From a virus, in the IMG/VR virus record IMGVR_UViG_3300046459_000220, positions 1 through 35,087 of that record: a stretch of 35,087 nucleotides of DNA; one strand, given 5' to 3'. Below the pieces are notes generated by a model. The model was given only the letters and a program-made list of their open reading frames with translations. It was not told the origin of the DNA and searched no databases. The translations under genes and the position numbers were made by a program. Below, in pieces: positions 1,888 through 35,087 of the stretch (positions within the stretch are counted from its first letter, which is position 1; each line of letters starts with the position of its first letter).

Positions 1888-1890
1888 CTC

Positions 1891-2313: not shown

Positions 2314-2343
2314 TCCAACGGCGGCTTGCATAGGAGATGAGAA

Positions 2344-2826: not shown

Positions 2827-2851
2827 TCAACGCCAACGGAGGGCAACACTG

Positions 2852-3325: not shown

Positions 3326-3687
3326 AGCGCGGTCTAGATGCGCCTGCGGCGTTCTATGACCAACCCGAAATCAATCCGGCGTGGCAGTTCCATTGGGAAG
3401 CCTTCAATGAGTTGAGCACCGAGCGGCAAATCGGGATGGGCGTTGGTCCCATACCGCGCTCGGCGATCAAGGACTATGCGGAAGAGTACGACATCGTTGG
3501 CGATGCGTTCGACAAGTTCGCGCGCATCATCCGCGCGGTCGATCTTGAATACATGAAGCAAGTCAACTCGTCGTCCCTGAAACCGAGCAAGGATGCAACC
3601 GTTCCGGTCGACGACGTCGACGCCGTGCGGGATGTTTTCAACCGCTTGCAAGCGCGTGCTCCAAAGGCAAAGCAACAGAAGCACTGA
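3304..3687 (+). CDS. Tail assembly chaperone, T extension (made as G-T frameshift fusion)
   Basis: This is the -1 frame continuation of the chaperone gene. The first in-frame start codon downstream of the open frame (TTG at 3412) lies inside the conserved domain, so independent initiation would truncate it. The segment from about 3319 to 3580 (ILDRIERGLDAPAAFYDQ, then 'AWQFHWEAFNELSTERQIGMG' and 'GPIPRSAIKDYAEEY') matches the pattern of small alphaproteobacterial tail chaperones with 'GxGPIPxxAI'. Its stop directly abuts the tape measure ATG. The exact slip point, and so the start coordinate, is inferred. Confidence 0.6.
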   Translation, partial: KTILDRIERGLDAPAAFYDQPEINPAWQFHWEAFNELSTERQIGMGVGPIPRSAIKDYAEEYDIVGDAFDKFARIIRAVDLEYMKQVNSSSLKPSKDATVPVDDVDAVRDVFNRLQARAPKAKQQKH

Positions 3688-10601: not shown

Positions 10602-11482
10602 TGTTCAGACTCTATCACACCAACCAGATCGATACCGCGACGTTCAGTGGCGGTTCGTGGCAACCGTTGCTGCCGCTCGATAACCTCTATTCGCCAAGCC
10701 CGACCCGGCGCGCGCGTTCAGTCGGTGCCACAACGGCCGCCACGCAGTTTCGCGTCTCGATGGCGCAAACGCTGACGGTGCATGGCATACAGATCATTGC
10801 CACCAACCTGTCGGCGGCGTCGACCTATCGCATCACTTGGTACACGGACTCCGCATTCACGGCGCAAGACGGAACGACGGGATTCATCACGGTCGGAAGC
10901 TCGATTGATTGGGCGAATACGTCGAACTGGCTCGATTGGATGGACGTGGGATTCTGGCTCGGGACCGGCGCGGAGATCGTTGACCCTGACGATCAAGGCG
11001 TGGACATCCGGCACAATTTTCCGTCGCCGCAATCCATGCGGTACATCAAAATCGAGTTCGCCGATCCGACCAATGCCGATGGCTTCGTCGAGGTTGGCTA
11101 TCTCTTTATTGGCGATGTGTTTGTGCCAACCTACAACGTCGCTCCTGATCCAACTTACAATCGAGTGTCGTTGACGACGATGCAGCAAGCAGTCGGTGGC
11201 GGGCAGTATTTCAATCGCCGCGGCTCGCGCAAGCGGCTGGTGGTCAATTGGCAACTGTTGCTGCAAGACGAAGTGTTCGGCGAACTCGATCAGATTATTC
11301 GCATCCACGACATCGACCGCCCGGTTTATGTGGACCTCGAACCGGACAATATCCTTGCAAGTGGATTCACTACGGCGTTCCTCGCGCGTATGGCGCAGTT
11401 GCCAGAGTCGCGCTTGCTTGAGGCGTACATCGAAAACGACACCGGGGCTACTATCGGCTTCGAATTTCAGCAGGTGCTATGA
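10601..11482 (+). CDS. Tail protein, distal/baseplate region, unassigned
   Basis: A protein of 293 residues from the ATG at 10601, which overlaps the previous stop by one base (TGATG); a GTG one codon earlier is an alternative. It begins 'MFRLYHTNQIDTATFSGGSWQ', contains beta-sandwich-like stretches (TQFRVSMAQTLTVHGIQIIA, 'RYIKIEFADPTNADGFVEVGYL') and ends with a domain around 'RKRLVVNWQLLLQDEVFGELD'. The N-terminal half resembles a discoidin/F5-8-like carbohydrate-binding sandwich. Position between the tail tip and the fibre makes a distal tail role likely. I do not recognise a named family. Confidence 0.5.
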   Translation: MFRLYHTNQIDTATFSGGSWQPLLPLDNLYSPSPTRRARSVGATTAATQFRVSMAQTLTVHGIQIIATNLSAASTYRITWYTDSAFTAQDGTTGFITVGSSIDWANTSNWLDWMDVGFWLGTGAEIVDPDDQGVDIRHNFPSPQSMRYIKIEFADPTNADGFVEVGYLFIGDVFVPTYNVAPDPTYNRVSLTTMQQAVGGGQYFNRRGSRKRLVVNWQLLLQDEVFGELDQIIRIHDIDRPVYVDLEPDNILASGFTTAFLARMAQLPESRLLEAYIENDTGATIGFEFQQVL

Positions 11483-14436
11483 TGGCCTTTGATTGGGGCA
11501 CAGATATCAGCCAGCCCGTCGAGGACGCGATCAATCGTCTCGACGACTACAACTCGTCGCCGTTCAACGCATCGACCAATCCGAAAGGCTTGGCGGGCGG
11601 CGGGCACATTACGAACTTTCCGGCGGCGTTGACCGACGCTGCGATCACCGCGAACGGATTCAAATCGTTTGCCGATCTGATGGCGAGCTATGCGGCGGCG
11701 GCCTCGACCTCGGCGGGCAATGCGTCGGCCGCCGCGGCCAACCTGTCCGGCACCTCGACGAGCTCGGTGGCGCTCTCGACCGGCCTGAAATCGTTCAGCA
11801 CACAGTCGGGCAAAACATGGCCTGCGGGCACCTATCTGTTGATCACAAGCGACGCCAACCCGTCGACGCACTACATGGTGTTGCTGGTCACAGCTTACAC
11901 CGGCTCGTCGTTGTCGGGTACGTCTGTTCTGTTCTCCGGTTCAGGATCGCGCGCTGATTGGACAATCCGAGCGACCGGTGTGCCCGGACGGTTTCCGGGT
12001 TTCCCCTATGTCTGGTCGACCGCCACGACCGCATCGGATCCAACCGCCGGAAAAATCAAAGTCAACGCAGCGCCAGGTGCGGCGACCGCGCTCTACATTT
12101 CCGAGACGGACGGCGACGGCAATGCGCTCGGTCCGTTGATTGCGACGTGGGATGATTCAACGTCGTCGCCCAAAGCTCGCATTTACATTCAGAACATCAC
12201 GGCCCCGTCGAACTTCCTCGTGCTCGACGTTGTGTCTAACGTCACCGATAACGGGACGTGGGACACCCTCGCCGTCACCAGTGCCGCCAACGGCGGCACG
12301 CTGGCCGATGGCGCGCAGGTTTCCGTCGTTGTGTTTCCGAACGGCAATGCGGGTGCTGCCGGGCCGTCAGGTTCGACCGGTCCGTCAGGTTCTACTGGTC
12401 CCGCTGGCCCGACCGGGCCGACCGGCTCGGACGGTTTGAGTGGCCCCGCCGGTCTAGCGGGACCGACGACCGCGCCCGTGTGGTCGTTCGATGCAAGCAC
12501 GACCGCGGCCGATCCCGGCACGAACAAGTTCCGTTTGAGCAGCGGCACTGTCTCGACGATGGCACCGGGCAGTCTCTACATCAACGAGCTTGGCACCGGC
12601 TCCAACGACATGAGCGCGTGGGTCAATACGTGGGACGACTCCACGAATAGCTCGCATCGCGGAACTTTGTTTCTGATCCAAACCAATGACAGCACGAAAT
12701 ATGCAACGTTCACGGTCGGCACCGTCACCGACAACGGCACCTATGACACGGTGGTTCTGAATTACGTTGCTGGTCCCGGCGGGTTCACCGCGGGTGCGGC
12801 GATAGCGTTTCAGTTCACCCGAACGGGCAATGCGGGTGCCGGTTCCGGCGACGTGGTTGGCCCGGCGGGCGCGACCAATCTCGGCATTGCGTTGTTTGAT
12901 GGCGGCACCGGCAAGCTGATCAAATCGTCGGCGGCTGTGGGCGCGCTGGCTTATCTGGCGACGGTCGGTAATGCACAGATCGATGCCGGGGCAGTGTCGC
13001 CCACCAACATCGCCACGCAGACTGCAGGGACGGTCCTGGCCAACACGACCGGCGGCACCGCGTCACCCGCCGCCGTCACCATCAACACAACATTCAAGAC
13101 CGCGCTCGGCCTGACCAAGAGCGACGTCGGCTTGAGCAACGTGGACAACACGGCGGACTCGGCCAAGCCGGTCCCCGCATCGGTCACGACGGCGCTCGGG
13201 CTGCGCTCGATAGTCCGGGTGCGCGCGGCGGCAACGACGAACCTTTCGATCCCGGCCGGGATTAACAACGGGGCCAGCGTCGACGGCGTTACGCTGGCGA
13301 CAGGCAACTTGGTGTTGCTGGCGGGGCAGTCGTCGGCCGGTGAGAATGGCATCTATCTGGTGGCCGCATCCGCGTCTACCCGCCATCCCGACTATGCCGC
13401 CTTCAATGATCTAGCTGGATTGCTGGCCATCGTGCAGGAAGGTACCGCCAACGCGGATTCGGTGTGGCTATCGACTGCTAATGCTGGCGGCACGATTGGC
13501 TCGTCCCCCGTTCCATTCACGCAGTTCGGCGGGCCGTCAGGAGCGCAGGGGCGCGTTGCGCTGGCATCAGCCGATCAGCCTGCCTTGCAAGCCGCGGTCG
13601 GCTTGACGGTTGGTTCCAACGTGCAGGCGTTCGATGCCTTGCTGACGAGCATTGCCGCCGCGCCCATGGTGGCGGATCGCTACCTGTACGGCACCGGCAC
13701 TGACACGGTGACGCTCGGAACGATCACGACGGCGGGCCGTGCGCTGATCGACGATGCCGACGCCAGTGCGCAGCTAACGACGCTCGGCCTCACTACGTTT
13801 TTTAAGACACTGGTCGACGATACTGATGCTTCGACTGTGTTGTCTACGCTCGGCGTCTCGACGTTTATCAAGACGTTGCTCGATGATGCTGACTCGGCGA
13901 CGGCGCTCGCGACGCTAGGCGTCGTTGGCAAAGAGGCCATCCCGATCCCGGCGGGTGCGCTCGAACCGGCGGCAACCAACGGTCCGTCAAGCGGCGCGCT
14001 CACGCTCACAAATCAGAAGTTCATCACGAAGGACTTCGACACGACCACGCAAGAGGCAGCATATTTTGCCTTGAGGATGCCGCAGCAATGGAACGAAGGC
14101 ACGGTGACGTTCCAGCTTGTGTGGTCCCATGCCGCAACGACGACAAATTTCGGAGCGGTGTTCGAGCTTGCTGCGGTCGCTTGTGGCGACGGCGACGCAG
14201 GCGACGCATCGTTCGGCACGGCGGTCACCGTCACCGATACGGGCGGCACCACGAACACAATCTATATCTCGCCCGAGAGTTCGCCGATCACGGTGGCGGG
14301 CACGCCGCAGCCCGGCGACTATGTGTTCTTTCGATTGCGCCGCAATCCGGCCGATGGCAGTGACAACCTAGCGGTCGACGCGCGCGTGCACGAACTGACG
14401 CTCTACATCAACACCAGCCTAGCGACCGACGTTTAA
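11479..14436 (+). CDS. Tail fibre with collagen-like segment and repeats
   Basis: A 985-residue protein overlapping the previous gene by 4 bases. An N-terminal attachment region (FDWGTDISQPVEDAINRLDDYN) precedes Ala/Ser-rich sequence. Residues about 178-288 and 333-455 look like two copies of one domain: both start VWS...DP..K, contain a 'TWDDST.S' motif and end 'VTDNGT.DT'. Between them lie Gly-X-Y triplets (residues about 289-330, bases 12343-12468) like collagen-type fibre shafts. Later come the tail-fibre motif 'LGLTKSDVGLSNVDNTADSAKP' and three repeats of the 'LxDDxDAxxxLxTLG' type (about 13738-13923). These support a trimeric fibre for adsorption. Confidence 0.75.
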   Translation: MMAFDWGTDISQPVEDAINRLDDYNSSPFNASTNPKGLAGGGHITNFPAALTDAAITANGFKSFADLMASYAAAASTSAGNASAAAANLSGTSTSSVALSTGLKSFSTQSGKTWPAGTYLLITSDANPSTHYMVLLVTAYTGSSLSGTSVLFSGSGSRADWTIRATGVPGRFPGFPYVWSTATTASDPTAGKIKVNAAPGAATALYISETDGDGNALGPLIATWDDSTSSPKARIYIQNITAPSNFLVLDVVSNVTDNGTWDTLAVTSAANGGTLADGAQVSVVVFPNGNAGAAGPSGSTGPSGSTGPAGPTGPTGSDGLSGPAGLAGPTTAPVWSFDASTTAADPGTNKFRLSSGTVSTMAPGSLYINELGTGSNDMSAWVNTWDDSTNSSHRGTLFLIQTNDSTKYATFTVGTVTDNGTYDTVVLNYVAGPGGFTAGAAIAFQFTRTGNAGAGSGDVVGPAGATNLGIALFDGGTGKLIKSSAAVGALAYLATVGNAQIDAGAVSPTNIATQTAGTVLANTTGGTASPAAVTINTTFKTALGLTKSDVGLSNVDNTADSAKPVPASVTTALGLRSIVRVRAAATTNLSIPAGINNGASVDGVTLATGNLVLLAGQSSAGENGIYLVAASASTRHPDYAAFNDLAGLLAIVQEGTANADSVWLSTANAGGTIGSSPVPFTQFGGPSGAQGRVALASADQPALQAAVGLTVGSNVQAFDALLTSIAAAPMVADRYLYGTGTDTVTLGTITTAGRALIDDADASAQLTTLGLTTFFKTLVDDTDASTVLSTLGVSTFIKTLLDDADSATALATLGVVGKEAIPIPAGALEPAATNGPSSGALTLTNQKFITKDFDTTTQEAAYFALRMPQQWNEGTVTFQLVWSHAATTTNFGAVFELAAVACGDGDAGDASFGTAVTVTDTGGTTNTIYISPESSPITVAGTPQPGDYVFFRLRRNPADGSDNLAVDARVHELTLYINTSLATDV

Positions 14437-15119
14437 TGTTGATGATGGCTCGCACAGCGAGACTGCGGAAGGGCATCATAACCGGCCCGGACGCGACGAT
14501 CTTTGGCTTGCAGGCCATCTGGGATACCAACTCGCTGTCGACCTATAGCTTTAGTGCGACCGATCTTGGACCGGCGGCGGCGGACAAATATATTGCCATG
14601 TGCTTGATGTTCAACAACGGCAGTTCGATCAATAGCATCGCGTCTGTGATTGTTGGCTCGCAGACTTGTGGTCGTCTTGTGGCGCAAAACGGAACGAATG
14701 TCGGTTCTGAAATCTGGATCACGGATGCAGCGTTTCCCGGCACGTCAGCGACGATTGTTGTGACAACCGCAGGCGCAGCATTCACGCGGGTAGTCTGCGT
14801 GACGTATCGGCTTAATTTTCTACAATCGCCAAGCCCGCAGTTTTCTAATCATTCTTCCTCTGGATATCCTTATTCGATGTCGCTGGGAATTTCAGCCGGT
14901 GGCGTCGGCATCGGTTGCTGCTATACCCGCAATGCCAACACTGGCGGCGGAACGACGTGGGGCGGTTTCAGTGAGGATATCGATCTATTGCTCGGGCCGA
15001 CAGTCGATAGCTACACATCCGCGCGCACTGTATCTGCCACGTCTGGCACCGGGACGGTGACCATCAGTTCATCTGCGCCGGGCGATGTGAGCGCCGCTTG
15101 CTGTGCGAGCTTGCGGTGA
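14436..15119 (+). CDS. Distal tail protein, paralogue 1
   Basis: A 227-residue protein whose ATG overlaps the fibre stop by one base. It starts 'MLMMARTARLRKG' and is Gly/Ser/Thr-rich and beta-predicted, with 'AADKYIAMCLMF', 'SEIWITDAAF', a 'GGGTTWGGFSED' turn and a terminal 'CCASLR'. The neighbouring gene has the same landmarks in the same order, so the two are tandem paralogues. Function is unknown; a fibre tip, fibre-associated or virion decoration role is suggested by location. Confidence 0.55.
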   Translation: MLMMARTARLRKGIITGPDATIFGLQAIWDTNSLSTYSFSATDLGPAAADKYIAMCLMFNNGSSINSIASVIVGSQTCGRLVAQNGTNVGSEIWITDAAFPGTSATIVVTTAGAAFTRVVCVTYRLNFLQSPSPQFSNHSSSGYPYSMSLGISAGGVGIGCCYTRNANTGGGTTWGGFSEDIDLLLGPTVDSYTSARTVSATSGTGTVTISSSAPGDVSAACCASLR

Positions 15120-15123
15120 CGCC

Positions 15124-15822
15124 ATGCTGATGACGGCGCGGACATCGAAGCTGCGGACGCTCACACAAGCCATCGTGCCCGCAACCATTTCCATAGGTGG
15201 TGGTGCAAGCGGTACCGGCGGCCCGTTCGTTGCGAATGTTTTCAACGGCGTCGGCATTGGGGCGGCCGCGGCTGATCGGTATATCGTTTCTGTTGTGGCT
15301 TTCGATACTGGGGCGGGGGCTGTTGCACTCAGCAATGTTAATATCAACAACAGCAACATCTGTTCGAAGCTTGCTGCTTTCAATCAATCAACGTTCTCGA
15401 TTGAAATTTGGATCACCAACGCGCCATTCACGACCGGCACGATTGCTGACTTTGTTCCGACTCCTGCAACGGGCGACTTTACTGACATGGTTCTGGCCAC
15501 ATATTCGGTGAGGGGACTCGTTTCTAATTTGATCAGTGGCAGCGCGCAGTCGTCCACGACTTCTGGCGCTGCAATGAGCTTGCCAATTTTGGCTGACGGC
15601 GTTGCGATAGGTGGAAGTTACTTGCTGGATGCAGGCAAGCCAGGAACAAATGATGGCTCTGGCTTTACTTGGAGTGGGTTGACTGAGGGCAGAGATAAAA
15701 AAGCCCTCAACATCCACGGTGGCGCTGCTGCTATCGCGTCGTCCACAGCCACAACGCTGTCAATCGCATGTACTAAGGGCGGCGGCACCACGTTCGGAGA
15801 ACTGTGCTGCGCGCTGCGATAA
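15124..15822 (+). CDS. Distal tail protein, paralogue 2
   Basis: A 232-residue protein. The ATG at 15124 was chosen over upstream codons because the product then begins 'MLMTARTSKLRTL', parallel to the start of paralogue 1. Shared landmarks are 'AADRYIVSVVAF', 'SIEIWITNAPF', 'GFTWSGLTEGRD' and the terminal 'CCALR'. Middle parts differ strongly and base composition is lower in GC than the fibre gene, suggesting diversification after duplication. Role inferred as distal tail or fibre accessory. Confidence 0.55.
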   Translation: MLMTARTSKLRTLTQAIVPATISIGGGASGTGGPFVANVFNGVGIGAAAADRYIVSVVAFDTGAGAVALSNVNINNSNICSKLAAFNQSTFSIEIWITNAPFTTGTIADFVPTPATGDFTDMVLATYSVRGLVSNLISGSAQSSTTSGAAMSLPILADGVAIGGSYLLDAGKPGTNDGSGFTWSGLTEGRDKKALNIHGGAAAIASSTATTLSIACTKGGGTTFGELCCALR

Positions 15823-15872
15823 AACTCTCCAGGGGCAAATCTCACTACCCTCACACACAAGGACATCAACCA

Positions 15873-16553
15873 ATGCCACAACAATATCTCGCGTTGATTA
15901 CCGTGCTCAGTGGCGGCCCCTACCCCGACAACTCTCTGCCGGGACCGCAGCCGCCGCTCGGCATCTGGGGGCCGACCGATCCTCGCCCAACCCCGCCGAT
16001 CTACATGCCGCCCGCTGGCGGTGGCGGCCCCGTCGATCCCGGTTATTCCCCGCCATGGGCACGGCCGCCCGTTGATCCGGGCTACAGCCCGCCGTGGGCG
16101 CGTCCCGGCGGTGGCCCGGTCGATCCTGGCTACTCCCCGCCGTGGGCGCGTCCACGACCGCCGGGACAGCCTACGCACCCGATCTACTATCCGCCCTACC
16201 CGGACAACTCGCTACCGGGCGGACAGCCATACCCGGATAATTCCCTGCCCGGACAGCAACCCCGTCCCGATCAAGGGTTGCCGCCGTTCCCGTCGCACCC
16301 GATCTACCTGCCACCGGAAGGAGCCCAGCCCCCGCTGGGAATTTGGGGGCCAACCGATCCGAGACCGGGTTACGGCCTGCCTGCTCCGCAGCCGCATCCA
16401 GAACACCCGATTGTGCTGCCGCCGGATCTGCCGCCGACTACACCGGAGGGTGGAAAGATTACTTGGAAGGTGGTTTGGACGCCCCAAACCGGATGGGCTG
16501 TGATCGGTATTCCGGCCGAGGGCACGTTGGTCCCCACGCCGTCGAAAAAATAA
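15873..16553 (+). CDS. Proline-rich repeat protein
   Basis: A 226-residue protein. The ATG at 15873 follows an AAGGA box; earlier in-frame codons look like non-coding lead-in. Nearly all of it is Pro/Gly repeat: three units like 'PVDPGYSPPWARP', three of 'PYPDNSLPG' and two of 'PPLGIWGPTDPRP'. A short ordered tail (GKITWKVVWTPQTGWAVIGIP) resembles a small beta domain. It is the last gene before the strong terminator. An extended fibre-linked or capsid-surface spacer is possible, but no function can be assigned. Confidence 0.6.
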   Translation: MPQQYLALITVLSGGPYPDNSLPGPQPPLGIWGPTDPRPTPPIYMPPAGGGGPVDPGYSPPWARPPVDPGYSPPWARPGGGPVDPGYSPPWARPRPPGQPTHPIYYPPYPDNSLPGGQPYPDNSLPGQQPRPDQGLPPFPSHPIYLPPEGAQPPLGIWGPTDPRPGYGLPAPQPHPEHPIVLPPDLPPTTPEGGKITWKVVWTPQTGWAVIGIPAEGTLVPTPSKK

Positions 16554-16603
16554 TGTGCTAGAACGGGTGCGCCTCGTAAGGGCACCCCCAGAACTACAAC
16601 AAC

Positions 16604-16637
16604 GGGGAGCACGGTTCAGCCGTGCTCCCCTTCTTTT
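16604..16637 (+). terminator. Strong intrinsic terminator after the tail operon
   Basis: A perfect 11-bp stem GGGGAGCACGG / CCGTGCTCCCC (16604-16614 and 16620-16630) with a TTCAG loop is followed by TTCTTTT. A weaker hairpin (GGGTGC at 16565-16570 with GCACCC at 16582-16587) lies just upstream. It separates tail genes from the lysis genes, so the endolysin needs readthrough, antitermination or its own promoter. Confidence 0.85.
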
Positions 16638-16655
16638 CATTCTGGAGGGCACGTT

Positions 16656-18218
16656 ATGAAATCCATCACCATCTCGAGCGGCCATGGACTCTATGTGCGT
16701 GGCGCATCTTGCTCGCCGATTCCGCCATACCTCGACGAAGTCGATGAAGCTCGTCGCATCGTCGACCGGACGGCTGAATATCTGCGGGCCGCTGGCTGCA
16801 CCGTGAAAGTTTTCCATGATAATACGAGCAAAGATAAATCTACGAATTTGAACACAATCGTTTCGGCACACAATAAGACCGTGCGCGAATTAGATGTTTC
16901 GATTCACCTGAATGCGTATACGAAGACCAGTAAGCCGATGGGCACTGAGTGTCTTTTTAAGACGCAGGAAGCGTTAGCAAAAACTGTTTCGAGTAAGATT
17001 GCTAAAGCCGGTGGTTTTTTGGACCGGGGTGGAAAGTACAGAAGTGATCTCAAATTTTTGAATTCGACGACTGCCCCAGCCGTGCTCGCCGAAATCTGTT
17101 TTGTGGACTCGAGTCATGACGGCGAGCAATACACCAAGAATTTTGATGCGATCTGCCACGCACTCGCCGAGGCGCTTGCGGGCAAAACAATCGATCAAGG
17201 TGTGACGCCACCGAAGCCGGTCGAACCTGGCGAGCCGGACGCACCGCCGCCACCGGCCGAGCGTCCGACCGTGGCTAAGGGTGACAAGGGCGAGCATGTT
17301 GAGAGTGTGCAAATTTCCATCGGCTTGATCCCAGATGGCGATTTTGGTGCCGTCACGGAGTCCGGTGTGAAAGGATTCCAAGCTGCCGCCGGGCTGAAAG
17401 CTGATGGTGTCGTCGGTCAAAAGACGTGGGCCGAACTCGACTTGTTGGACGAGCGGAAAGGCAATGGCGACGACGGCCTCACCTACGAACAGAGCACGGC
17501 GATTGTCGAGATCGCCAACACATCCAAGATCGCCAAATATAAATGGCGCGACCGCGGTGTGGCCCCGGCGGGGTATACCGCAGGCATCGCATTGTGCTTC
17601 GCGCTCGCGGTCACTCGCCTCGGATATGCCGACCCGGCGTTCGACGACATGGCGGTGGCCGACCGTGATAACCCGGACAAGGATGCGCTATCGTGGTACG
17701 CGGCCGAGTTTAAAAAATTGAACATGGACAATTCGCAGGACGGCGTCGACACGTTGCGGCATCTGTTCGTGATGTTGTTGGGGTTGGGGCTACGCGAATC
17801 ATCTGGCCGGTACTGCGAAGGGCGAGACATGTCGGCCGAAAACGTGAGCGCGGAAACCGCTGAAACGTCCATGCATCAGACGAGCTACAACATCCGCAGT
17901 TCCAACCCGAATGTCGCGGCCTTATTGCAAGAATATTGGGACAACCCGAACGGGTTCTTGGGTACCTTCAGACTCGGCGTGTTCCCTGATTCCAACGATC
18001 TCGGCGTGTACGGCTCGGGCGATGGTGCCAAGCATCAGTTTATCAGTCGGTTTGCGCCTGCGTATCACGCATTCGTCACGGCAATCGGAATGAGATACTT
18101 GCGGCAACATTGGGGGCCGATCAATCGCCGCGAGGTTGAGCTACGACCGGAAGCGGACGAGATGTTTCAGGCGGTGCAGGATTATCTGTCGGAGAATTCG
18201 GCCGAGGCTGGCGTATAA
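16656..18218 (+). CDS. Modular endolysin: amidase, PG-binding domain, lysozyme-like domain
   Basis: A 520-residue protein with a strong RBS (GGAGGG, 6 bases from ATG). Residues 1-180 are an N-acetylmuramoyl-L-alanine amidase of the Amidase_3 type: H10 (SSGHG), E28, H84 (SIHLNA) and E146 (LAEICFVD) fit the zinc ligands and catalytic Glu. A Pro-rich linker (about 182-207) leads to a peptidoglycan-binding domain (about 208-265; 'LIPDGDFGAVTESGVKGFQ'). The last ~250 residues contain 'GLGLRESSGRYCEGRD' and 'HQTSYN', which look like a lysozyme or transglycosylase-type active region. No signal peptide is seen, so a holin is needed. The amidase part (16800-17100) is more AT-rich than the rest. Confidence 0.85.
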   Translation: MKSITISSGHGLYVRGASCSPIPPYLDEVDEARRIVDRTAEYLRAAGCTVKVFHDNTSKDKSTNLNTIVSAHNKTVRELDVSIHLNAYTKTSKPMGTECLFKTQEALAKTVSSKIAKAGGFLDRGGKYRSDLKFLNSTTAPAVLAEICFVDSSHDGEQYTKNFDAICHALAEALAGKTIDQGVTPPKPVEPGEPDAPPPPAERPTVAKGDKGEHVESVQISIGLIPDGDFGAVTESGVKGFQAAAGLKADGVVGQKTWAELDLLDERKGNGDDGLTYEQSTAIVEIANTSKIAKYKWRDRGVAPAGYTAGIALCFALAVTRLGYADPAFDDMAVADRDNPDKDALSWYAAEFKKLNMDNSQDGVDTLRHLFVMLLGLGLRESSGRYCEGRDMSAENVSAETAETSMHQTSYNIRSSNPNVAALLQEYWDNPNGFLGTFRLGVFPDSNDLGVYGSGDGAKHQFISRFAPAYHAFVTAIGMRYLRQHWGPINRREVELRPEADEMFQAVQDYLSENSAEAGV

Positions 18219-18224
18219 TAAGCC

Positions 18225-18755
18225 ATGAACCCCGCCATCCACGAAGAGGTGTCCAAGCAGGTTGGCGGCTTTTTCAAGATTATGGAGATGCAGCCACTAA
18301 GCTTGGCCTTGGTGGTAATGAATTTTGCCCTGGTCGCCTTCCTCTTTTACAGCAATTCGCAAGTGCTGACGCAGCGGCAGAATGCGCTCGATCAGATCGT
18401 GCGTTGGCAATCGAACAGCGATCAAATGATGGCTTCGTGCGTTAGCATCGAAGTCATGAAATTGGTGGTTGACGCACTCGAGCGCGACCGCTCGCTCTAC
18501 CGGCAAATGCTGCCGCCGCTAACACCGGGGCAGGAAATTCCACGTCCGGCACCGGCACCGGCACCATTGCCGCCGGGGCTGATGCCGCAAAAGGATAATC
18601 CGCTGCAGCATTTGCTGCCGCCGGATCGGCGCACCGAACTAGAAAAGCTTGAGGTGCCTTATGTGGCTAACTGGCCGTCACATCCGCCACTTCCGACACC
18701 CCGTCCATCCACAGCACCGCGTGACTCCAAACCCGCCAACGATGGGAACGAATGA
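18225..18755 (+). CDS. Single-TM lysis-region protein (i-spanin- or holin-like candidate)
   Basis: A 176-residue protein six bases after the endolysin stop. Residues about 25-43 (LSLALVVMNFALVAFLFY) form one membrane segment, followed by a soluble helical region with 'RQNALDQIVRWQSNSDQMMAS' and then a Pro-rich tail. A short N-terminus, one TM helix and an outside coiled region fit an inner-membrane spanin, but no lipoprotein partner overlaps it, so a holin or unrelated membrane protein is equally possible. No clear Shine-Dalgarno; translation may be coupled to the endolysin. Confidence 0.5.
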   Translation: MNPAIHEEVSKQVGGFFKIMEMQPLSLALVVMNFALVAFLFYSNSQVLTQRQNALDQIVRWQSNSDQMMASCVSIEVMKLVVDALERDRSLYRQMLPPLTPGQEIPRPAPAPAPLPPGLMPQKDNPLQHLLPPDRRTELEKLEVPYVANWPSHPPLPTPRPSTAPRDSKPANDGNE

Positions 18756-23519: not shown

Positions 23520-24110
23520 CTATTTTTTGTTGTTTATTTCTTTCCACCAATCGGCCGCGCCCTCGTCGTCGTCATCGGTGGTCGGGATGTCGTCGGCAGC
23601 ATCAGATTGGTGTATTTCCGTCTCGATCTGTGCATCGAACGGAATGTCTTTGTATATGAGTTGCACGCCGTGTTCAAAACATACGCGCTGCAGGTAGTGC
23701 CAAAATTCGTTGCGCTCGGTATCGTCGGCAGCATCCCATGCTTGCTGTACGGTCGTGCGCGCTGGCCCCGGCGGGCTGAACGGGACGACGTTTGCCCGCA
23801 CCTCGGAAGGCGCGGGCAGGTCATTATGTCCGGCTCTTCGTCCATCCTGCATCACGTCCCTTCGTTCATGTTTCTTGTTGTTGGTTGCGCACTCTGGGCA
23901 GAAGTGTAGGTTAGGCGCGCGGCCGACTTTCCAGTGCCACCGCATGAACAGCTTGCGCATCTGCTCGTTCGATTGGCCGTGGTTTAAATGCTTGGCTTGC
24001 TTGCCACACTTGCGGCAAACGATCCTATTATATCGGTCGAAGCCAATGCCATCGGGCTTCACACCCTCGATGATCTCAAACCAAAAACTGTTATCATTGT
24101 GTTTTTTCAT
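23520..24110 (-). CDS. Zinc-ribbon-containing phage protein
   Basis: A 196-residue protein. The N-terminal third holds 'YNRIVCRKCGKQAKHLNHG' and, further on, 'LHFCPECATNNKK', so two CxxC pairs about 40 residues apart could bind zinc. The C-terminal half is acidic with 'TVQQAWDAADDTERNEFWHYL' and ends in a poly-Asp stretch plus 'WWKEINNKK'. The start overlaps the upstream stop by 4 bases. No enzymatic motif; DNA or RNA binding is possible. Confidence 0.5.
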   Translation of the reverse strand: MKKHNDNSFWFEIIEGVKPDGIGFDRYNRIVCRKCGKQAKHLNHGQSNEQMRKLFMRWHWKVGRAPNLHFCPECATNNKKHERRDVMQDGRRAGHNDLPAPSEVRANVVPFSPPGPARTTVQQAWDAADDTERNEFWHYLQRVCFEHGVQLIYKDIPFDAQIETEIHQSDAADDIPTTDDDDEGAADWWKEINNKK

Positions 24111-25147
24111 TCAGCCGCTTCGTCGACCTTGCTGGCAAAGATCGGATCGAGGTTCAGCCGCTTGCGCAGCACTTCATAGAGTACGTCTTTCGGCAGTTTC
24201 TTGGTCGAGCGTAGATATTCGTCGACCTTGAGTCCCTTCAATCGCCGGATGAATTTGTCCGGGAAATAGAACTCGTCCTTTGCGGTGCCATCCCAGAAAT
24301 CGGAATAGGTCGACAGCAGCCAGCACACCGTCAACAGAAACTCAGCCCTAAGATGCGGGCGTGGCTCGTCGCGAGCGCCGGACAGTTGACGGACGGTCCA
24401 ACATTTATCGATGGCGTCGAAAAACCGGATCATGTTGGTGCGGAGGTTGTCGGGGCCAATCGTTTCCACCAGCGAATCCAACCCTTGCAGCAAGTCGTAC
24501 ACCTTGCTGCTCCTAAGCGCGCCGCTCTTGTGGGCGTGCAGCGCACCGACGATCCGAGCGAATGTGAACCCGGTCATCAGTTCGTGGCGGGTTTTAACTT
24601 GATCCCAGCCGACGCGATCTTTCATCGCAAAGGCGTCGTCCTTGTTCAGCGCCACCAGCACGGCCGCGGCTTCGCTTTTCTTTTTCCGGTTGCGCATCAG
24701 CACGCTTGCCGAGATGCGAACCTGTGTCGTCCCCAAGCGGCAAAACAGGTCGTTCTCGAATTCCTCGGTTGTGCCTATATAGACTTTGGCTCCAAGCTTG
24801 ATCTTGAGATCCGGGCGTTCCTTGACCGCCAAGGCAGCGGCGTACAGGCGTTGTCCGCCGTCGATGCAAAAGCACTTGTCGTGCAGGAAGTAGGTTGTTC
24901 CTCGCGACGTGCACCGCTGGCCGCGCATTCCGAGCACGATATCGGACATGTTGCCGCCCATGAAATAGCCCGCGATAATCTCGTTGATGTGATTGCCGCT
25001 GAATCCCTGCTCGCGCTGATACCAACCAATGTTGATATATTTGAGCGTGGTCTGATCGAGCACGCCGCGCAGAACAAGCTCGTCCTTCACGTCGTCGTCT
25101 TCCTCAAGGCTGTAGTTAAGGACGCGGACATCGTTATTATTTGCCAT
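24107..25147 (-). CDS. ParB/DndB-like (DGQHR-type) domain protein
   Basis: A 346-residue protein from ATG 25147 with a perfect AAGGAGT box. The N-terminal part has 'YQREQGFSGNHINEIIAGYFM' and, after a variable loop, 'FCIDGGQRLYAAALAVKERPD', matching the 'DGQ(H)R' signature of DGQHR/ParB-type domains, followed by 'FENDLFCRLGTTQVRISASVL'. These folds occur in DndB regulators, ParB-like nucleases/CTPases and phage proteins. The C-terminal helical half is unfamiliar. It overlaps the upstream gene by 11 bases. A DNA-binding or partition-like function is inferred only from the motif. Confidence 0.5.
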   Translation of the reverse strand: MANNNDVRVLNYSLEEDDDVKDELVLRGVLDQTTLKYINIGWYQREQGFSGNHINEIIAGYFMGGNMSDIVLGMRGQRCTSRGTTYFLHDKCFCIDGGQRLYAAALAVKERPDLKIKLGAKVYIGTTEEFENDLFCRLGTTQVRISASVLMRNRKKKSEAAAVLVALNKDDAFAMKDRVGWDQVKTRHELMTGFTFARIVGALHAHKSGALRSSKVYDLLQGLDSLVETIGPDNLRTNMIRFFDAIDKCWTVRQLSGARDEPRPHLRAEFLLTVCWLLSTYSDFWDGTAKDEFYFPDKFIRRLKGLKVDEYLRSTKKLPKDVLYEVLRKRLNLDPIFASKVDEAAE

Positions 25148-25973
25148 GGTCCGACTCCTTGTGATCAATCGAGTCCATGAGATGGACGACGACTTCCTCG
25201 CGCCGTATGCGGTCAATGCTTTTGATCAGATAGGCTAGCAAGTCCTTTTGCTCTTGCGGCGTTGCCGTACTCCATGCCGACACCATGCGCTTGCGCCACG
25301 CGCCGATCAGGGTTTGCGGGCCGCTGCGCCGGTTGGTACTCGCAAGCGCGCTGACATCTTTGCCAGCGGCGGCATCCGCGATCAATTGGCGAACGATCTC
25401 GGTATGCTCACCCTCCGGTGCTCCGCGATTGAGAACGACCAGTTCATCCATCTCGGGCGCACTGTCGAGCGACGTCCCCTTGATCTTGTTCATCGCCTCT
25501 TCGCCGAGCTTCATTGTGCGGAAGTTCGTTTTGCGGTCACGACTCCCCCGCTTTTGCTTGCCAAAAAATGTATTGTCTGATTTCACGGGCGGTGCGGGCT
25601 GTATGGGTTGCGCCGGTTTTCGGTAGCGCTCCCGATTCTCAATCCAGATCCTTCGGTACGAACGCAGATGCGTCCCGGTGAGCGCGGCGCGGAGCAGTGT
25701 CATATCGGATGCGAGGGCGAGCAATGCGTTGCGGTCGATCCGCGTCCAAAATTCCACGCCGTTCTGTGTCAGCCAATCCTTAAAAGCGACGTCCGGTGAT
25801 ATGGCGTCTTTCGCTTCAAGCATTGCCGCTGCATATTGGATCGAACCCTCGATCCAACTGGTGCGGTCGCCCTTTGCGGCGGCTGTCACGGTGAGATCGT
25901 AAGCAGCGATGATGCGGCGCTTTATGGAATCGATCTTGCCATGGCCAGGTTCGATAAACGCAACGACCGACAT
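25137..25973 (-). CDS. First gene of leftward operon, unknown function
   Basis: A 278-residue protein with an excellent GGAGGG box. The N-terminal half (IKRRIIAAYDLTVTAAAKGDR, 'IQYAAAMLEAKDAISPDVAFK', 'DWLTQNGVEFWTRIDRNALLA') resembles plasmid/phage proteins built of short helices like DUF3102-type 'EAK...L' segments. A basic linker (KQKRGSRDRKTNFR) precedes a helical C-terminus. It starts next to the divergent control region and heads the minus-strand unit. Confidence 0.5.
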   Translation of the reverse strand: MSVVAFIEPGHGKIDSIKRRIIAAYDLTVTAAAKGDRTSWIEGSIQYAAAMLEAKDAISPDVAFKDWLTQNGVEFWTRIDRNALLALASDMTLLRAALTGTHLRSYRRIWIENRERYRKPAQPIQPAPPVKSDNTFFGKQKRGSRDRKTNFRTMKLGEEAMNKIKGTSLDSAPEMDELVVLNRGAPEGEHTEIVRQLIADAAAGKDVSALASTNRRSGPQTLIGAWRKRMVSAWSTATPQEQKDLLAYLIKSIDRIRREEVVVHLMDSIDHKESDHGK

Positions 25974-26836: not shown

Positions 26837-27562
26837 TTGAAATTCTATGTCGGCATCGATCATGCTTCGCACGCCGAACATCTCAACCGAGTTTTTATCA
26901 GCATCAATACTGTACGCCGTCGCAAAAAGCCGGTCGCAGCCTCGGAATGGATTCTAGACAGCGGGGCATTTCGTGAAATCGAGCAATATGGCTGTTACCG
27001 TCACGACCCGGCTGAATATGCTGCTTCGGTTAATCGTTTGGCGGCAATCAATTCCAATCTGATTGCCGCTGTATCGCAAGATTGGATGTGCGAGCCGTTC
27101 ATGGTCGAGCGCACCGGGCTGTCAGTCGAGGAACACCAGCGGCGCACGATTGAGCGATACGATGCGTTGCTGCCGCTGGTGAACATCTACTTGATGCCGG
27201 TGCTGCAAGGATATTCATTGCAGAGTTACCTTGACCACATCGCCCAATATGGCGACCGGCTACAGCCCGGCATGTATGTCGGCGTTGGATCAGTCTGCAA
27301 ACGCAACGGGGATGTGCGGCAGATCGAGGCAATTCTATCTGCCATCAAGCGAGTGCGGCCGGATTTGCGATTGCATGGCTTCGGCATCAAGGTCACGGCC
27401 CTCGGCAGCGGTGTGGTGCGTGATTGCCTCTACAGCGCAGACAGCATGGCGTGGTCGTTCGCTGCTCGCTGGGAAGGACGGAACGCCCACGATTGGCGCG
27501 AAGCAAAAGCATACGCTGATCGGATTGAAACGATGCCATTTCAATATGGATGGATGTTCTAA
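26837..27562 (+). CDS. dpdA: DpdA-like 7-deazaguanine DNA/tRNA base-exchange enzyme
   Basis: A 241-residue protein from a TTG start five bases after a GGGGG run. It follows the phage DpdA/TGT-related pattern: 'MKFYVGIDHASHAEHLNRVF' opening, 'WILDSGAF' (D41), 'AVSQDWMCEP', 'IERYDALLPL', 'YLMPVLQGY', 'YVGVGSVCKRNGDVRQIEAIL', 'LRLHGFGIKVTAL' and 'SADSMAWSFAAR' (D202). TGT-family enzymes use two aspartates of this kind to exchange guanine for a 7-deazaguanine; DpdA homologues do so in DNA and can shield phages from restriction. No preQ0 synthesis genes occur in the window, so the base would come from the host queuosine pathway. Confidence 0.7.
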   Translation: MKFYVGIDHASHAEHLNRVFISINTVRRRKKPVAASEWILDSGAFREIEQYGCYRHDPAEYAASVNRLAAINSNLIAAVSQDWMCEPFMVERTGLSVEEHQRRTIERYDALLPLVNIYLMPVLQGYSLQSYLDHIAQYGDRLQPGMYVGVGSVCKRNGDVRQIEAILSAIKRVRPDLRLHGFGIKVTALGSGVVRDCLYSADSMAWSFAARWEGRNAHDWREAKAYADRIETMPFQYGWMF

Positions 27563-31338: not shown

Positions 31339-31550
31339 GCACTCAAACCAAGATCGGCGATTGGTACTTCTCGGTGTACCACGGCAAGAACGGTTTCATC
31401 GCATTTGCATCGGTGAACGAGGACGCCGGACCGCAGAACTTCGAAGGGTGCGAAGCAATCTTCGCGCTTGGCGAGACACCCGACGACGCGATGCACAAGC
31501 TGTGCACGCAAATGCGCGAGCAAGGGCTGATCAAGGTGGGATATCACTGA
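31335..31550 (+). CDS. 71-residue protein, unknown function
   Basis: ATGA overlap upstream and a one-base overlap with the methyltransferase start downstream. 'KIGDWYFSVYHGKNGFIAFAS' and 'EAIFALGETPDDAMHKLCTQM' suggest a small alpha/beta fold. Unknown role; its position suggests co-expression with the methyltransferase. Confidence 0.5.
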   Translation: MSTQTKIGDWYFSVYHGKNGFIAFASVNEDAGPQNFEGCEAIFALGETPDDAMHKLCTQMREQGLIKVGYH

Positions 31551-33442
31551 TGCCCGAGACGTTCCTCGACCGGATCGATCTGCATTGCGGCGACTGTCTC
31601 GCCGTGCTCGCAACCCTGCCCGATAACTCGATTGACTCGTGCGTGACCGATCCGCCGTATCACCTCACGTCCATCGTCAAGCGATTTGGATCCGACGACG
31701 CAGCACCGCCGAAGGAATACACATCGGCACCCTACGGCGGCAACTTTCCGTATCGAGACAGCGGTGGCGGCACGGGCGCAGCGTTCGCGCGAATGTCGAA
31801 AGGCTTCATGGGAAAAGTTTGGGACGGTGGCGACATCGCATTTCGTCCCGAGGTGTGGATGCAAATCTTTCGCGTGCTCAAACCTGGCGGCTACGTGCTC
31901 GCGTTCGGTGGCACGCGCACCTATCACCGCATGGCGTGCGCAATCGAGGACGCGGGCTTCGACGTGCGCGACATGATCAGTTGGATCTACGGCAGCGGAT
32001 TTCCGAAGTCGCATGACGTGAGCAAGGGCATTGACCGCGCGGCGGGAGCGGAGCGCATCTCGCTTGGCCGCGCCAATGGCGCAGGATCGTCCAACACCGA
32101 AAGTCTGGGTGTCTTTCAACCGAAATATGAAGCTACCGCGCCAGCCACCGACGCCGCCCGCGAATGGGAAGGCTGGGGCACGGCGCTCAAGCCCGCGCTT
32201 GAACCGATCTGCATGGCGCGGAAACCGTTGAGCGAGGGCACCGTCGCAGCCAACGTGCTCGAGCACGGCACGGGCGCGATCAACGTGGATGGATGCAGGG
32301 TTGTGTCATGGGAACAAGAGGACGCTACTTATTGTTCGTGTGCCGAGCGTGCGGATGTATTCAGGAAAACAGGCGTACCGGGAACAAAGGAATCTTCTGC
32401 GATAAAGCGTGTCGAGCCGATTTTGAACGGCGACCAAAAGACAATCCCGGTCGATATCGTCACAACGGATATTGGATGTTGCGATGGATTGAAAACGGAA
32501 AATATCGGCACGAGTTCGAGCACAGACGAATATGGAAAAACGCTAACGGGCCGATCCCAGACGGATACGAAATCCACCACGTCAATGGACGAAAAACAGA
32601 CAACCGCATCGAGAATTTGCAGTGTTTGCGGCGGTATGATCACGCCCAACAACACCGACTCTACCACACACGAGAGGACGATCTCGCAGCCCGACGAATT
32701 GCAGCCAAGCAATCACGCGACAAGCGACGGCTCGATCCTGAATGGGTTGAAAAAGAACGAGCGCGAGGCCGCGAGAAACACAATCGCCTCAAAGGGAAGG
32801 TGGCCAAGTAATTTGATCCACGACGGCAGCGAGGAAGTCGTGGCGGCGTTTCCTGATAGCGACGGACAGCAAGGCGCGGTAACAGGATCAGAACCAAGCG
32901 CAAAGACCGCGACGGTATGGGGATCAATGCATCGTGTCCCCGGCGACTCTCGCGAGCCGCGAAACGACTCCGGCTCCGCCGCCCGCTTCTTCTATTCGGC
33001 CAAGGCCGACGCCGACGACCGCATCGGATCCAAACATCCCACGGTCAAGCCCGTCGATCTCATGCAATACCTCGTCCGCCTGATCACACCGCCGCACGGC
33101 ACCGTCATCGATCCGTTCGCCGGAACCGGCACCACAGGCGAAGCCGCATGGCGCGAAGGAATGCACGCCGTGTTGATCGAGGCCGAGCCAGAATATCAGA
33201 ACGACATCCGCCGCCGCATGAAGCTGTGCATGGCCGGACCCGACGAGCGGCTGCGTGAATCGATCAAGGCAAAAAACTTGCCGTATGATCCCGGTCCGTT
33301 ATTTGGATCGCCCGGTTTGAAAGGCGAGGGTCGGCAGATATACGGTAAGTATGCCGACCAAAATCCACGCACGGATGCGTGGGATGAGATGTGGGCGAAG
33401 CCGTTTGATTTTTCTGCGGAGCCGAAAGGCAACCCCGGATGA
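31550..33442 (+). CDS. DNA methyltransferase (beta-class N4/N6 type) carrying a translated insertion
   Basis: A 630-residue frame from ATG 31550. 'DLHCGDCLAVLATLP' and DPPY (residues 34-37) come first and the SAM motif 'DPFAGTGTTGEAAW' (about 521-534) near the end, the motif order of beta-class N4-cytosine/N6-adenine methyltransferases; 'KHPTVKPVDLMQYLVRLITPP' is also typical. Between 'GTGAINVDGCRV' (residue ~250) and 'GRWPSNLIHDGSEEVVAAFPD' (~417) lies about 165 residues of Ser/Thr/Asp-rich sequence without resemblance to methyltransferases. In another frame this DNA encodes an HNH endonuclease. The insertion falls in the region that normally recognises the target, so activity or specificity may be altered. 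Confidence 0.8.
   Translation: MPETFLDRIDLHCGDCLAVLATLPDNSIDSCVTDPPYHLTSIVKRFGSDDAAPPKEYTSAPYGGNFPYRDSGGGTGAAFARMSKGFMGKVWDGGDIAFRPEVWMQIFRVLKPGGYVLAFGGTRTYHRMACAIEDAGFDVRDMISWIYGSGFPKSHDVSKGIDRAAGAERISLGRANGAGSSNTESLGVFQPKYEATAPATDAAREWEGWGTALKPALEPICMARKPLSEGTVAANVLEHGTGAINVDGCRVVSWEQEDATYCSCAERADVFRKTGVPGTKESSAIKRVEPILNGDQKTIPVDIVTTDIGCCDGLKTENIGTSSSTDEYGKTLTGRSQTDTKSTTSMDEKQTTASRICSVCGGMITPNNTDSTTHERTISQPDELQPSNHATSDGSILNGLKKNEREAARNTIASKGRWPSNLIHDGSEEVVAAFPDSDGQQGAVTGSEPSAKTATVWGSMHRVPGDSREPRNDSGSAARFFYSAKADADDRIGSKHPTVKPVDLMQYLVRLITPPHGTVIDPFAGTGTTGEAAWREGMHAVLIEAEPEYQNDIRRRMKLCMAGPDERLRESIKAKNLPYDPGPLFGSPGLKGEGRQIYGKYADQNPRTDAWDEMWAKPFDFSAEPKGNPG
32308..32811 (+). CDS. HNH homing-type endonuclease nested in the methyltransferase gene
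   Basis: A 167-residue frame (ATG 32308 with AGGG about 8 bases upstream; ATG 32293 also in frame). A zinc ribbon (FVCRACGCIQENRR, 'GIFCDKACRADF') precedes the HNH core: 'EFEHRRIWKNANGPIPDGYEI' then 'HHVNGRKTDNRIENLQCL' and 'DHAQQHRLYH', followed by a basic helical tail. Its last codons and stop are read out of the conserved methyltransferase sequence 'GRWPSN' in the other frame. The inserted DNA is more A-rich than its flanks, indicating acquisition. It resembles mobile HNH genes that cut allele copies lacking the insert. Confidence 0.7.
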   Translation: MGTRGRYLLFVCRACGCIQENRRTGNKGIFCDKACRADFERRPKDNPGRYRHNGYWMLRWIENGKYRHEFEHRRIWKNANGPIPDGYEIHHVNGRKTDNRIENLQCLRRYDHAQQHRLYHTREDDLAARRIAAKQSRDKRRLDPEWVEKERARGREKHNRLKGKVAK

Positions 33443-33957
33443 CCCAACCGTTCTGGGCTGTCTGCCAAGTTGAGTCTCGCCGCGAACCATTCGTGCGCAT
33501 GTTGCTCGAACTCGCCGACTTCGAAACCTACATGCCGTTGATTCGGGTTCGGCATCAAATGATCCGCTACCGAACCTCGTTGTTGTTCCCGAGCTACATC
33601 TTCGTAAAAATTCAGGACGATTGTTGGTACGACGTTCTTTGGACGCCGCGAGTCATCCGCCTGATCATGTCCGGTGATCGACCGGCAAAACTGCCGATCA
33701 ACGCAGTCGAACAACTCCAACGCAAAACCACACGGGACGGATTCGTGAAATTACCCTCGAAACCCTCGATCCGCCTCGGCGACAAGGTCCGAATCCTGCA
33801 CGGCCACTTCGCCGGTCACCTCGGGATCTTCGACGGCCAATCCGCCCATGAGCGCCAGCGGATCTTGCTGGATCTGCTCGGACAGAAAATCGCGGTCGAA
33901 ATGCCTTCCGGTCACGTCGAGCCGCTAGATGTTGCGTCAAATCGCAAGTTCCCGTAA
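33439..33957 (+). CDS. NusG/RfaH-like transcription elongation factor
   Basis: A 172-residue protein overlapping the methyltransferase by 4 bases. The N-terminal NGN-like domain has 'WAVCQVESRREPFVRMLLELA' and 'DFETYMPLIR', then 'LFPSYIFVKIQDDCWYDVLW' and 'VIRLIMSGDRPAKLP'; residues ~110-132 (IRLGDKVRILHGHFAGHLGIF) form a KOW motif, followed by 'LLDLLGQKIAVEMPSGHVEPL'. The size equals bacterial NusG. Phage NusG paralogues could drive antitermination. It is the last gene before a highly structured non-coding stretch leading to late genes. Confidence 0.75.
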   Translation: MTQPFWAVCQVESRREPFVRMLLELADFETYMPLIRVRHQMIRYRTSLLFPSYIFVKIQDDCWYDVLWTPRVIRLIMSGDRPAKLPINAVEQLQRKTTRDGFVKLPSKPSIRLGDKVRILHGHFAGHLGIFDGQSAHERQRILLDLLGQKIAVEMPSGHVEPLDVASNRKFP

Positions 33958-33961
33958 TAAA

Positions 33962-34207
33962 CAACCCCACGGGTTGCGATTCCAAGAATCTCGTAAGCTT
34001 TTGTTTTCAGCGAGGAAACGCCCGAAAACACGGCGTTTTCTGCGCGCAGCGCGTTGATTCCGTTGGGGTTTTGTTGGGCTTTCCCCTAACGGAATCACAG
34101 GTGCCGAGCACTCCCCGCAGGCAATGTCCCCCCATGAACCCGCAACAGGGTGCTCGGTACTTCCTCAAATGCGACCCATGGGTCGGAAATGCGAAGCACC
34201 GCTTCGC
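33962..34207. repeat. Cluster of six inverted repeats
   Basis: By eye: CAACCC/GGGTTG (33962-33967, 33971-33976); AAACGCC/GGCGTTT (34016-34022, 34032-34038); GATTCCGTT/AACGGAATC plus GGGG/CCCC inside (34056-34096); CCGAGCAC/GTGCTCGG (34104-34111, 34150-34157); the perfect palindrome CGACCCATGGGTCG (34172-34185); GCGAAGC/GCTTCGC with a 3-base loop (34191-34207). None is followed by a long U-run, so classical terminators are unlikely; a structured RNA or protein-binding array fits better. Confidence 0.75.
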
Positions 34208-34298
34208 TATTGGCCCGTCCCAAATAGGGGGGTGGGTATGCTCCCCGTTAATTCCAATAGGCCGATTTGCCCCAGCGCGGGCCACTGGTGCGCTAATC

Positions 34299-34334
34299 GG
34301 GGTAGGGGTAGCCAGGGGTAGCGGGTACTAGGGG
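34299..34334 (+). other. G-rich run with quadruplex potential
   Basis: Five G-tracts (four GGGG, one GGG) separated by 2-6 bases, based on repeated GGGGTA units. Such spacing permits a G-quadruplex in the plus strand or its RNA. Confidence 0.55.
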
Positions 34335-34421
34335 CCACGCTACAGGCGGCTTTCCCTGCCTGTCCCTTGGTGGTTCATGGTGGCACAGCTACCCGTGGTG
34401 GTAGGGTCCAACCCGAGTGGC

Positions 34422-34500
34422 TATCTATATTTAATTATCTAATTGATAAATACATTTGGGATTCCAAATAGATAAACCAAAAAGAAATTAAATCAGGTTA
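34422..34500. other. AT-rich island with nested inverted repeats
   Basis: About 79 bases with roughly 20% GC. It contains ATCTAT near the left and ATAGAT near the right, TTATC/GATAA in the middle and ATTTGG-GATT-CCAAAT (34454-34469). A TTGATA box at 34443-34448 may serve as a -35, without a convincing -10. Possible duplex-unwinding element, promoter/UP element or bent DNA. Confidence 0.5.
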
Positions 34501-34596
34501 GCATTTTCATTTCAGTTGATCGCCGATCTCAATCCCACGTGCTGCCCCGCAGGCACCCCCCCTAGGGGCGCTAATCCCAATCGGAGAGATTGAATC

Positions 34597-34989
34597 TTGC
34601 CAATCAAATTGGACCCACGGGACAATGCCCACCGCCGGGGCTACACCCATACGTGGGAAGCTCAGACGGCAGCATACCGCAAGCAGCACCCCCACTGCAC
34701 CGGATGTGCCGCAATGGGCATCGTCCACAGAACCGAGTGCATCGATCATATCATCCCCCATAAGGGCGATAAGCTATTGTTCTGGAACAAAAACAATTGG
34801 CAACCGTCTTGTAACTGGCACCACAACTCGATCAAACCCGAACTCGAACGGCGGTGGTTCGATAAGCTGATCCCCGCAGCCGAGCTTGTTCTATCCAGTC
34901 CGACCGCCGTGCAGGTTTCGCGCGAACGATACAAGCCGACCATCGGTGTCGACGGCTGGCCCGTGAAACATGTTTCACGTGAAACATAG
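34597..34989 (+). CDS. HNH endonuclease of the terminase-adjacent type
   Basis: A 130-residue protein from TTG 34597 with GGAGAG 8 bases upstream. The core is 'HPHCTGCAAMGIVHRTECIDH' then 'IIPHKGDKLLFWNKNNWQPS' and 'CNWHHNSIKPELERRW': two CxxC/CxxxH zinc pairs and the DH...N...H catalytic arrangement of phage HNH proteins such as HK97 gp74. These genes usually lie just before the small terminase gene and aid cos cleavage with terminase. The last codons (VKHVSRET) are formed by a perfect parS palindrome that ends right before the stop. Confidence 0.8.
   Translation: MPIKLDPRDNAHRRGYTHTWEAQTAAYRKQHPHCTGCAAMGIVHRTECIDHIIPHKGDKLLFWNKNNWQPSCNWHHNSIKPELERRWFDKLIPAAELVLSSPTAVQVSRERYKPTIGVDGWPVKHVSRET
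34971..34986. other. Perfect parS (ParB-binding) site
   Basis: The 16-base palindrome TGTTTCACGTGAAACA is the canonical chromosomal parS sequence recognised by bacterial ParB. A further half site (CGTGAAACA, 34962-34970) abuts it, producing the overlapping palindrome GTGAAACATGTTTCAC (34963-34978). No other copy was found in the window by eye. Confidence 0.9.
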
Positions 34990-35087
34990 TTCGCATCGAG
35001 GTTGCGGAAAAATTTCTAACCCGTTGAAGTTCAAAAACTTCGAGGGGGGGGTGGAAAAAAAGAAAAAATTTCGATGGGGGAAACGAC
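34990..35087 (+). other. Non-coding right edge, possible packaging-site vicinity
   Basis: After the HNH stop there is no gene start visible. The stretch has GAAGTT-CAAA-AACTTC (35026-35041), eight consecutive G (35044-35051) and an A-rich run. In HK97-like genomes the cohesive end site lies between the HNH gene and the terminase genes, so cos may be here or just beyond; no cos sequence can be identified by inspection. Confidence 0.35.

Follow-up and report, generated by a model that had tools for sequence, protein, structure and literature searches.

parS Element at the End of the HNH Gene

The window, that is, the whole stretch of viral DNA analyzed here (35,087 nucleotides), ends with an antiterminator gene, an HNH endonuclease gene and a short non-coding stretch. 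The last codons of the HNH gene are formed by a parS element. The features of this region are:

33439-33957, plus strand: NusG-like antiterminator gene (PF02357, E = 1.1e-12)
34597-34989, plus strand: HNH endonuclease gene, 130 amino acids, TTG start codon (phrog_2323, E = 3.4e-20)
34963-34970, plus strand: parS half site GTGAAACA, part of the palindrome GTGAAACATGTTTCAC at 34963-34978 (sequence and palindrome scan)
34971-34986, no strand: perfect parS palindrome TGTTTCACGTGAAACA (exact match; the same 16-mer as the chromosomal parS of the presumed host)
34990-35087, no strand: non-coding stretch of 98 bp from the HNH gene to the contig end, which probably abuts terS and is a possible cos region

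The original prediction had placed an exact parS palindrome with an adjoining half site just before the HNH stop codon, and both were found there in the reading frame of the gene. The half site directly abuts the 16-bp palindrome and forms with it a second perfect 16-bp palindrome; the element as a whole consists of three successive half sites. Positions 34960-34989 read CCCGTGAAACATGTTTCACGTGAAACATAG, which encodes the C-terminal residues VKHVSRET followed by the stop codon TAG at 34987-34989. A motif scan of the whole window at up to three mismatches gave 34971-34986 as the sole parS match. Some ParB proteins bind single half sites, while Caulobacter ParB binds them only weakly (PMC10419367). 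Therefore, the extra half site may increase the affinity but need not do so. A reading of the palindrome as a terminator was rejected, since no terminator-like site was detected in 33900-35087. Rfam gave zero matches in the window.

Host and Type of the parS Site

Relatives of the tail gene were found in a phage that exists as a circular 41-kb plasmid of Rhizobium rhizoryzae (L124), in Rhizobium oryzicola and in Antarcticirhabdus. Judged from such relatives of its structural genes, the phage probably has an alphaproteobacterial host of the order Hyphomicrobiales. The exact 16-mer was present in 18 of the 31 Hyphomicrobiales genomes sampled, often with two or three copies in one place, spaced by about 2 kb. 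R. oryzicola has four sites, each with no more than one mismatch, among the origin-region genes gyrB, hemE, rho, trmE and gidA (genes identified by eye), and an exact 16-mer is located just past gidA. Because the 16-mer clusters in Hyphomicrobiales genomes, in R. oryzicola among the genes of the origin region, we assign the phage site to the chromosomal type of parS. The description of the site as host-type is thus borne out for the host order deduced above. A parS of repABC plasmids was ruled out: the centre of the phage site is CG and not GC as in their consensus GTTNNNNGCNNNNAAC (PMC9040568).

A Lineage-Specific DNA Element

The assignment of the ORF as an HNH gene is firm, as judged by its profile match. 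A single-protein query for HNH relatives in IMG/VR returned no matches, and relatives were found via the alignment of the tail protein. Their HNH proteins, including those of two related phages, end in DGYPKPGS, DGWPIDPRHPANRR or otherwise; the C-terminus is IGADGYPKPGS in a 67-kb relative (G004) and GLDGWPIDPRHPANRR in L124. In the window protein the shared motif, here DGWP, is directly followed by V and the tail encoded by parS. Among about 30 homologues examined none carried a parS near the end of the HNH gene, and the KHVSRET tail was seen in no other HNH protein examined. No conserved parS was detected in 28 related viral records, in which a single match with three mismatches was the only one. 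L124 and L125 lack a host-type parS. G004 and L124, the nearest relatives that span the HNH position, are both devoid of parS. This absence, together with the presence of one parS copy plus a half site in the window, was counted against a functional reading.

Since the HNH genes of the relatives end differently and without parS, the tail is an addition of the window phage's lineage and not a by-product of the protein. Alternatively, the tail could serve the HNH protein itself, with the palindrome as a mere consequence of the peptide. The element indeed follows the reading frame of the gene and runs exactly up to the stop codon. Nevertheless, we regard this explanation as highly improbable in view of the different endings of the homologues and of the 2304 synonymous spellings of HVSRET, only one of which gives a perfect parS. 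With the tail missing from the relatives examined and so many spellings available, selection on the DNA would be a simpler cause of the exact palindrome than a need of the protein. The comparison of the palindrome with the C-terminal peptide, proposed earlier as a check, consequently revealed a lineage-specific DNA element, with peptide and site both absent from the HNH relatives examined.

parS Sites in Other Phages

In the window the expected count of the 16-mer is 3.5e-6 (base composition) to 1.2e-5 (order-1 Markov model), and that of the 24-mer formed by half site and parS is 5e-10. The earlier statement that the 16-mer is unlikely by chance in 35 kb holds for the expected number, but the implied rarity is misleading, as many phages carry an exact parS. 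A collection-wide control weighs more than the chance expectation for one window, because any motif in any of many windows could have been picked.

Such a control was made with three palindromes that share the base composition and the ACGT centre of parS; they occurred in 11, 3 and 12 IMG/VR contigs. The exact parS was present in at least 120 viral contigs. It is thus at least 10-fold above the controls, and at most about one in ten of the viral parS matches is due to chance. Some IMG/VR contigs may contain contaminating host DNA, but isolate phages give the same picture: in INPHARED 176 records match a parS-containing 51-mer versus 0 for a control palindrome with the same flanks. According to a crude ORF model, 74 of the 147 parS sites among the matches listed are intergenic, versus 15.5% of the sequence and 2 of 11 control sites. 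In two Ruegeria-type phages 16 of 16 parS bases are kept within flanks that align at 58%. The excess over the controls, the intergenic bias, the INPHARED counts and the conservation in the Ruegeria-type phages suggest selection on phage parS sites as a group.

On each of three viral contigs a segment of about 1 kb contains three to five exact parS sites (L017, 2657-3444; L044, 10535-11462; L053, 240-961). These clusters are possibly centromeres of their own or host-derived. In INPHARED, parS-like palindromes were also noticed in small single-stranded DNA phages, namely microviruses, Spiroplasma phage 4 and bajarodino viruses, sometimes at many places per record.

The 24-mer has one further occurrence in IMG/VR, on contig L122, where it lies close to the end of an unrelated ORF and is read in the same frame. 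L122 is also the only other case of a half site joined to parS among the viral parS loci listed. The 24-mer was absent from all 289 alphaproteobacterial genomes sampled. It therefore does not seem to be a common scrap of host DNA, since it recurs in L122 all the same. These data bear on the explanation that the site is a neutral passenger, i.e. a piece of host parS recombined into the gene end, or a chance motif, in either case devoid of function. Its absence from the relatives examined, the tolerance of a gene end towards additions and the few chance occurrences of each control palindrome would fit. The low expected counts and the recurrence of the 24-mer speak against it, and in a host that possesses ParB, a perfect site for this protein would hardly be without biochemical effect. 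Overall, we consider a functionless site quite unlikely.

Genome Layout and Packaging Region

A second contig (G002) is 100% identical to positions 1-18427 of the window and continues for another 20,955 bp on the opposite side. The extension leads from portal and capsid genes to terL and terS, and the contig begins 82 bp before terS. The apparent conflict that only 1-18427 is shared was resolved in this way, with G002 running the other way, to terS. If the window and G002 are parts of one genome, the phage would comprise at least 56 kb.

The gene order NusG-HNH is common to the window, L124 and G004, the latter also with a PF02357 match. In L124 NusG is followed by HNH and then by terS, and about 134 bp separate the HNH stop from the terS start. 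Since the window ends 98 bp past the HNH gene, G002 starts shortly before terS and L124 shows this order, the HNH gene probably abuts terS with the parS in between. Hence, the proposed neighbourhood of the site and the packaging region is probable. That cos lies at the contig break is conjecture.

Such a location would suit a role in packaging or ejection, in which ParB at the terminase-end parS marks, positions or protects the genome end after injection or before packaging. From the order in L124 and the ends of G002 and the window, parS probably lies within about 200 bp of a terminase gene and perhaps of cos. However, the HNH gene of G004 is not adjacent to terL but well away from it, cos is a candidate only, and in Ruegeria, Gordonia and Microbacterium phages parS is found away from the packaging genes. 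We therefore judge this role to be improbable.

Two more observations concern HNH genes. The HNH gene of L124 between NusG and terS (14722-15066, minus strand) is unannotated and lies on the strand opposite to the annotated small ORF G6N80_RS23250. In the window a further gene, HNH_3 (PF13392; 32293-32811, plus strand), lies in another frame inside a DNA methylase ORF (31361-33442). Compared with EBPR siphovirus 2 this methylase has an extra stretch at about residues 315-455, at the position of HNH_3; Rfam revealed no intron family at this locus.

Lifestyle and Partition Genes

Searches for ParA (PF13614) and for integrases of the tyrosine type (PF00589) gave no match in the window, G002 and G004, any gap between the window and G002 lying outside the search. 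Both domains were found in the phage-plasmid relatives G009 and L124. The absence of parA, stated before for the window, is thus confirmed for two contigs of together at least 56 kb, and the recommended look into the missing part of the genome likewise yielded no PF13614 match in G002. The phage encodes a Cro/YdaS-type regulator; a plasmid replication initiator was not recognised in it. Accordingly, it resembles neither a phage-plasmid with its own ParABS, by the lack of a ParA match, nor an integrating temperate phage, by the lack of PF00589. A parS mimic in combination with no ParA of its own is what would be expected of an SGI1-like hijacker.

Near YqaJ-like recombination genes the window encodes a DGQHR-domain protein (24107-25216, minus strand). 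This protein was considered as a stand-in for ParB and set aside: it does not resemble a typical ParB, its TIGR03187 match is weak and below the cut-off, and no solved structure matched it. A DpdA homologue (26837-27562, plus strand; PF23859, E = 2.1e-43) suggests DNA modification of the 7-deazaguanine type. Modification of guanines by this pathway could alter ParB binding and was counted against a functional reading.

Proposed Function of the Phage parS

After loading at parS, ParB slides with the help of CTP and contacts ParA and SMC. CTP-dependent loading and sliding at parS is among the findings described for Caulobacter ParB (PMC8367383). Based on the identity of the motif, host ParB very probably binds the phage site. 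ParB-CTP clamps of the host would load at the 16-bp site, slide onto the adjoining phage DNA and connect this DNA with the ParA, and also the SMC, of the host. The circularised, extrachromosomal phage genome would then be positioned and shared between the daughter cells by the host machinery, with the host ParABS standing in for phage-encoded ParA and ParB. A function of the site in positioning or segregating extrachromosomal phage DNA is plausible, but we propose it tentatively.

The main rival to this segregation reading is titration. Here, many phage copies would act as a decoy that titrates or redirects host ParB, together with MipZ and SMC, and disturbs segregation and division to the benefit of the phage. 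During lytic growth phage copies would presumably far outnumber the few chromosomal parS sites, and a lytic lifestyle would agree with the lack of a tyrosine integrase in the genome as far as known. In Caulobacter an extra parS lowers fitness depending on its position, and a plasmid with parS 3+4 was reported to be lethal (PMC5815017). Nevertheless, one site per genome is a modest sponge, so that strong titration would need loading and spreading, and the sparse, often intergenic placement of phage parS is not specifically in favour of a decoy. Titration thus appears unlikely, although it deserves more weight than the other rivals.

Carriage of a host parS might even be a widespread strategy among phages of Firmicutes, Actinobacteria and Alphaproteobacteria. 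Those that lack ParA and ParB would join or disturb host segregation by means of one ParB loading site, and the window phage would be a case in which the site was added at the end of a gene of the packaging region. We regard this generalization as conceivable, and hold it somewhat less readily than not. If the element is functional, the phage uses the chromosome segregation machinery of its host via only about 24 bp of DNA. Sites of this kind would then predict which phages without an integrase might be maintained as episomes partitioned by the host or might interfere with ParB. With the counts from viral contigs and isolate phages and with the intergenic bias, one odd case becomes a general question on phages and ParABS that can be tested.

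Comparison with Known Systems

No paper on host-type parS in phages was found in the literature searched. In the phi29 family of Bacillus phages host Spo0J/ParB has reportedly been implicated in the trapping of phage DNA in spores (Meijer et al. 2005). The family member B103 carries an exact parS inside the coding sequence of gene 15. As in the window phage, an exact host-type parS thus lies within a coding gene. In contrast, the phi29 family consists of podoviruses of a sporulating Firmicute, whereas the window phage is tailed, has a likely alphaproteobacterial host that forms no spores, and carries its site in a terminal HNH gene.

A related phage-plasmid is L124 (NZ_CP049252.1), with related tail genes, a terL 51% identical to that of G002 and the order NusG-HNH-terS. 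Unlike the window phage, it possesses its own ParA and ParB as well as a tyrosine recombinase, and it lacks a host-type parS. Extrachromosomal mycobacteriophage prophages are also integrase-less and have a partition site. However, they rely on parABS with their own ParA and ParB and a direct-repeat parS (PMC7157519), whereas the window phage has the host motif and no ParA in its known genome.

The mobile element SGI1 hijacks the ParABS system of IncC plasmids for its own stability by means of parS mimics, two of which were shown to bind (PMC10954446). Like SGI1, the window phage is a mobile element with a parS that is proposed to use the ParABS of another replicon. SGI1 depends on a plasmid ParB and on two sites with demonstrated binding, whereas the site of the window phage is of the chromosomal type and known from its sequence. 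Hijacking of ParABS by an element is therefore of a known kind, with phi29 and Spo0J and the "stolen" parS of SGI1 as precedents. By analogy with SGI1 and the IncC ParABS, the replacement of phage partition genes by the host ParABS would be the simplest functional reading of the parS in the window phage.
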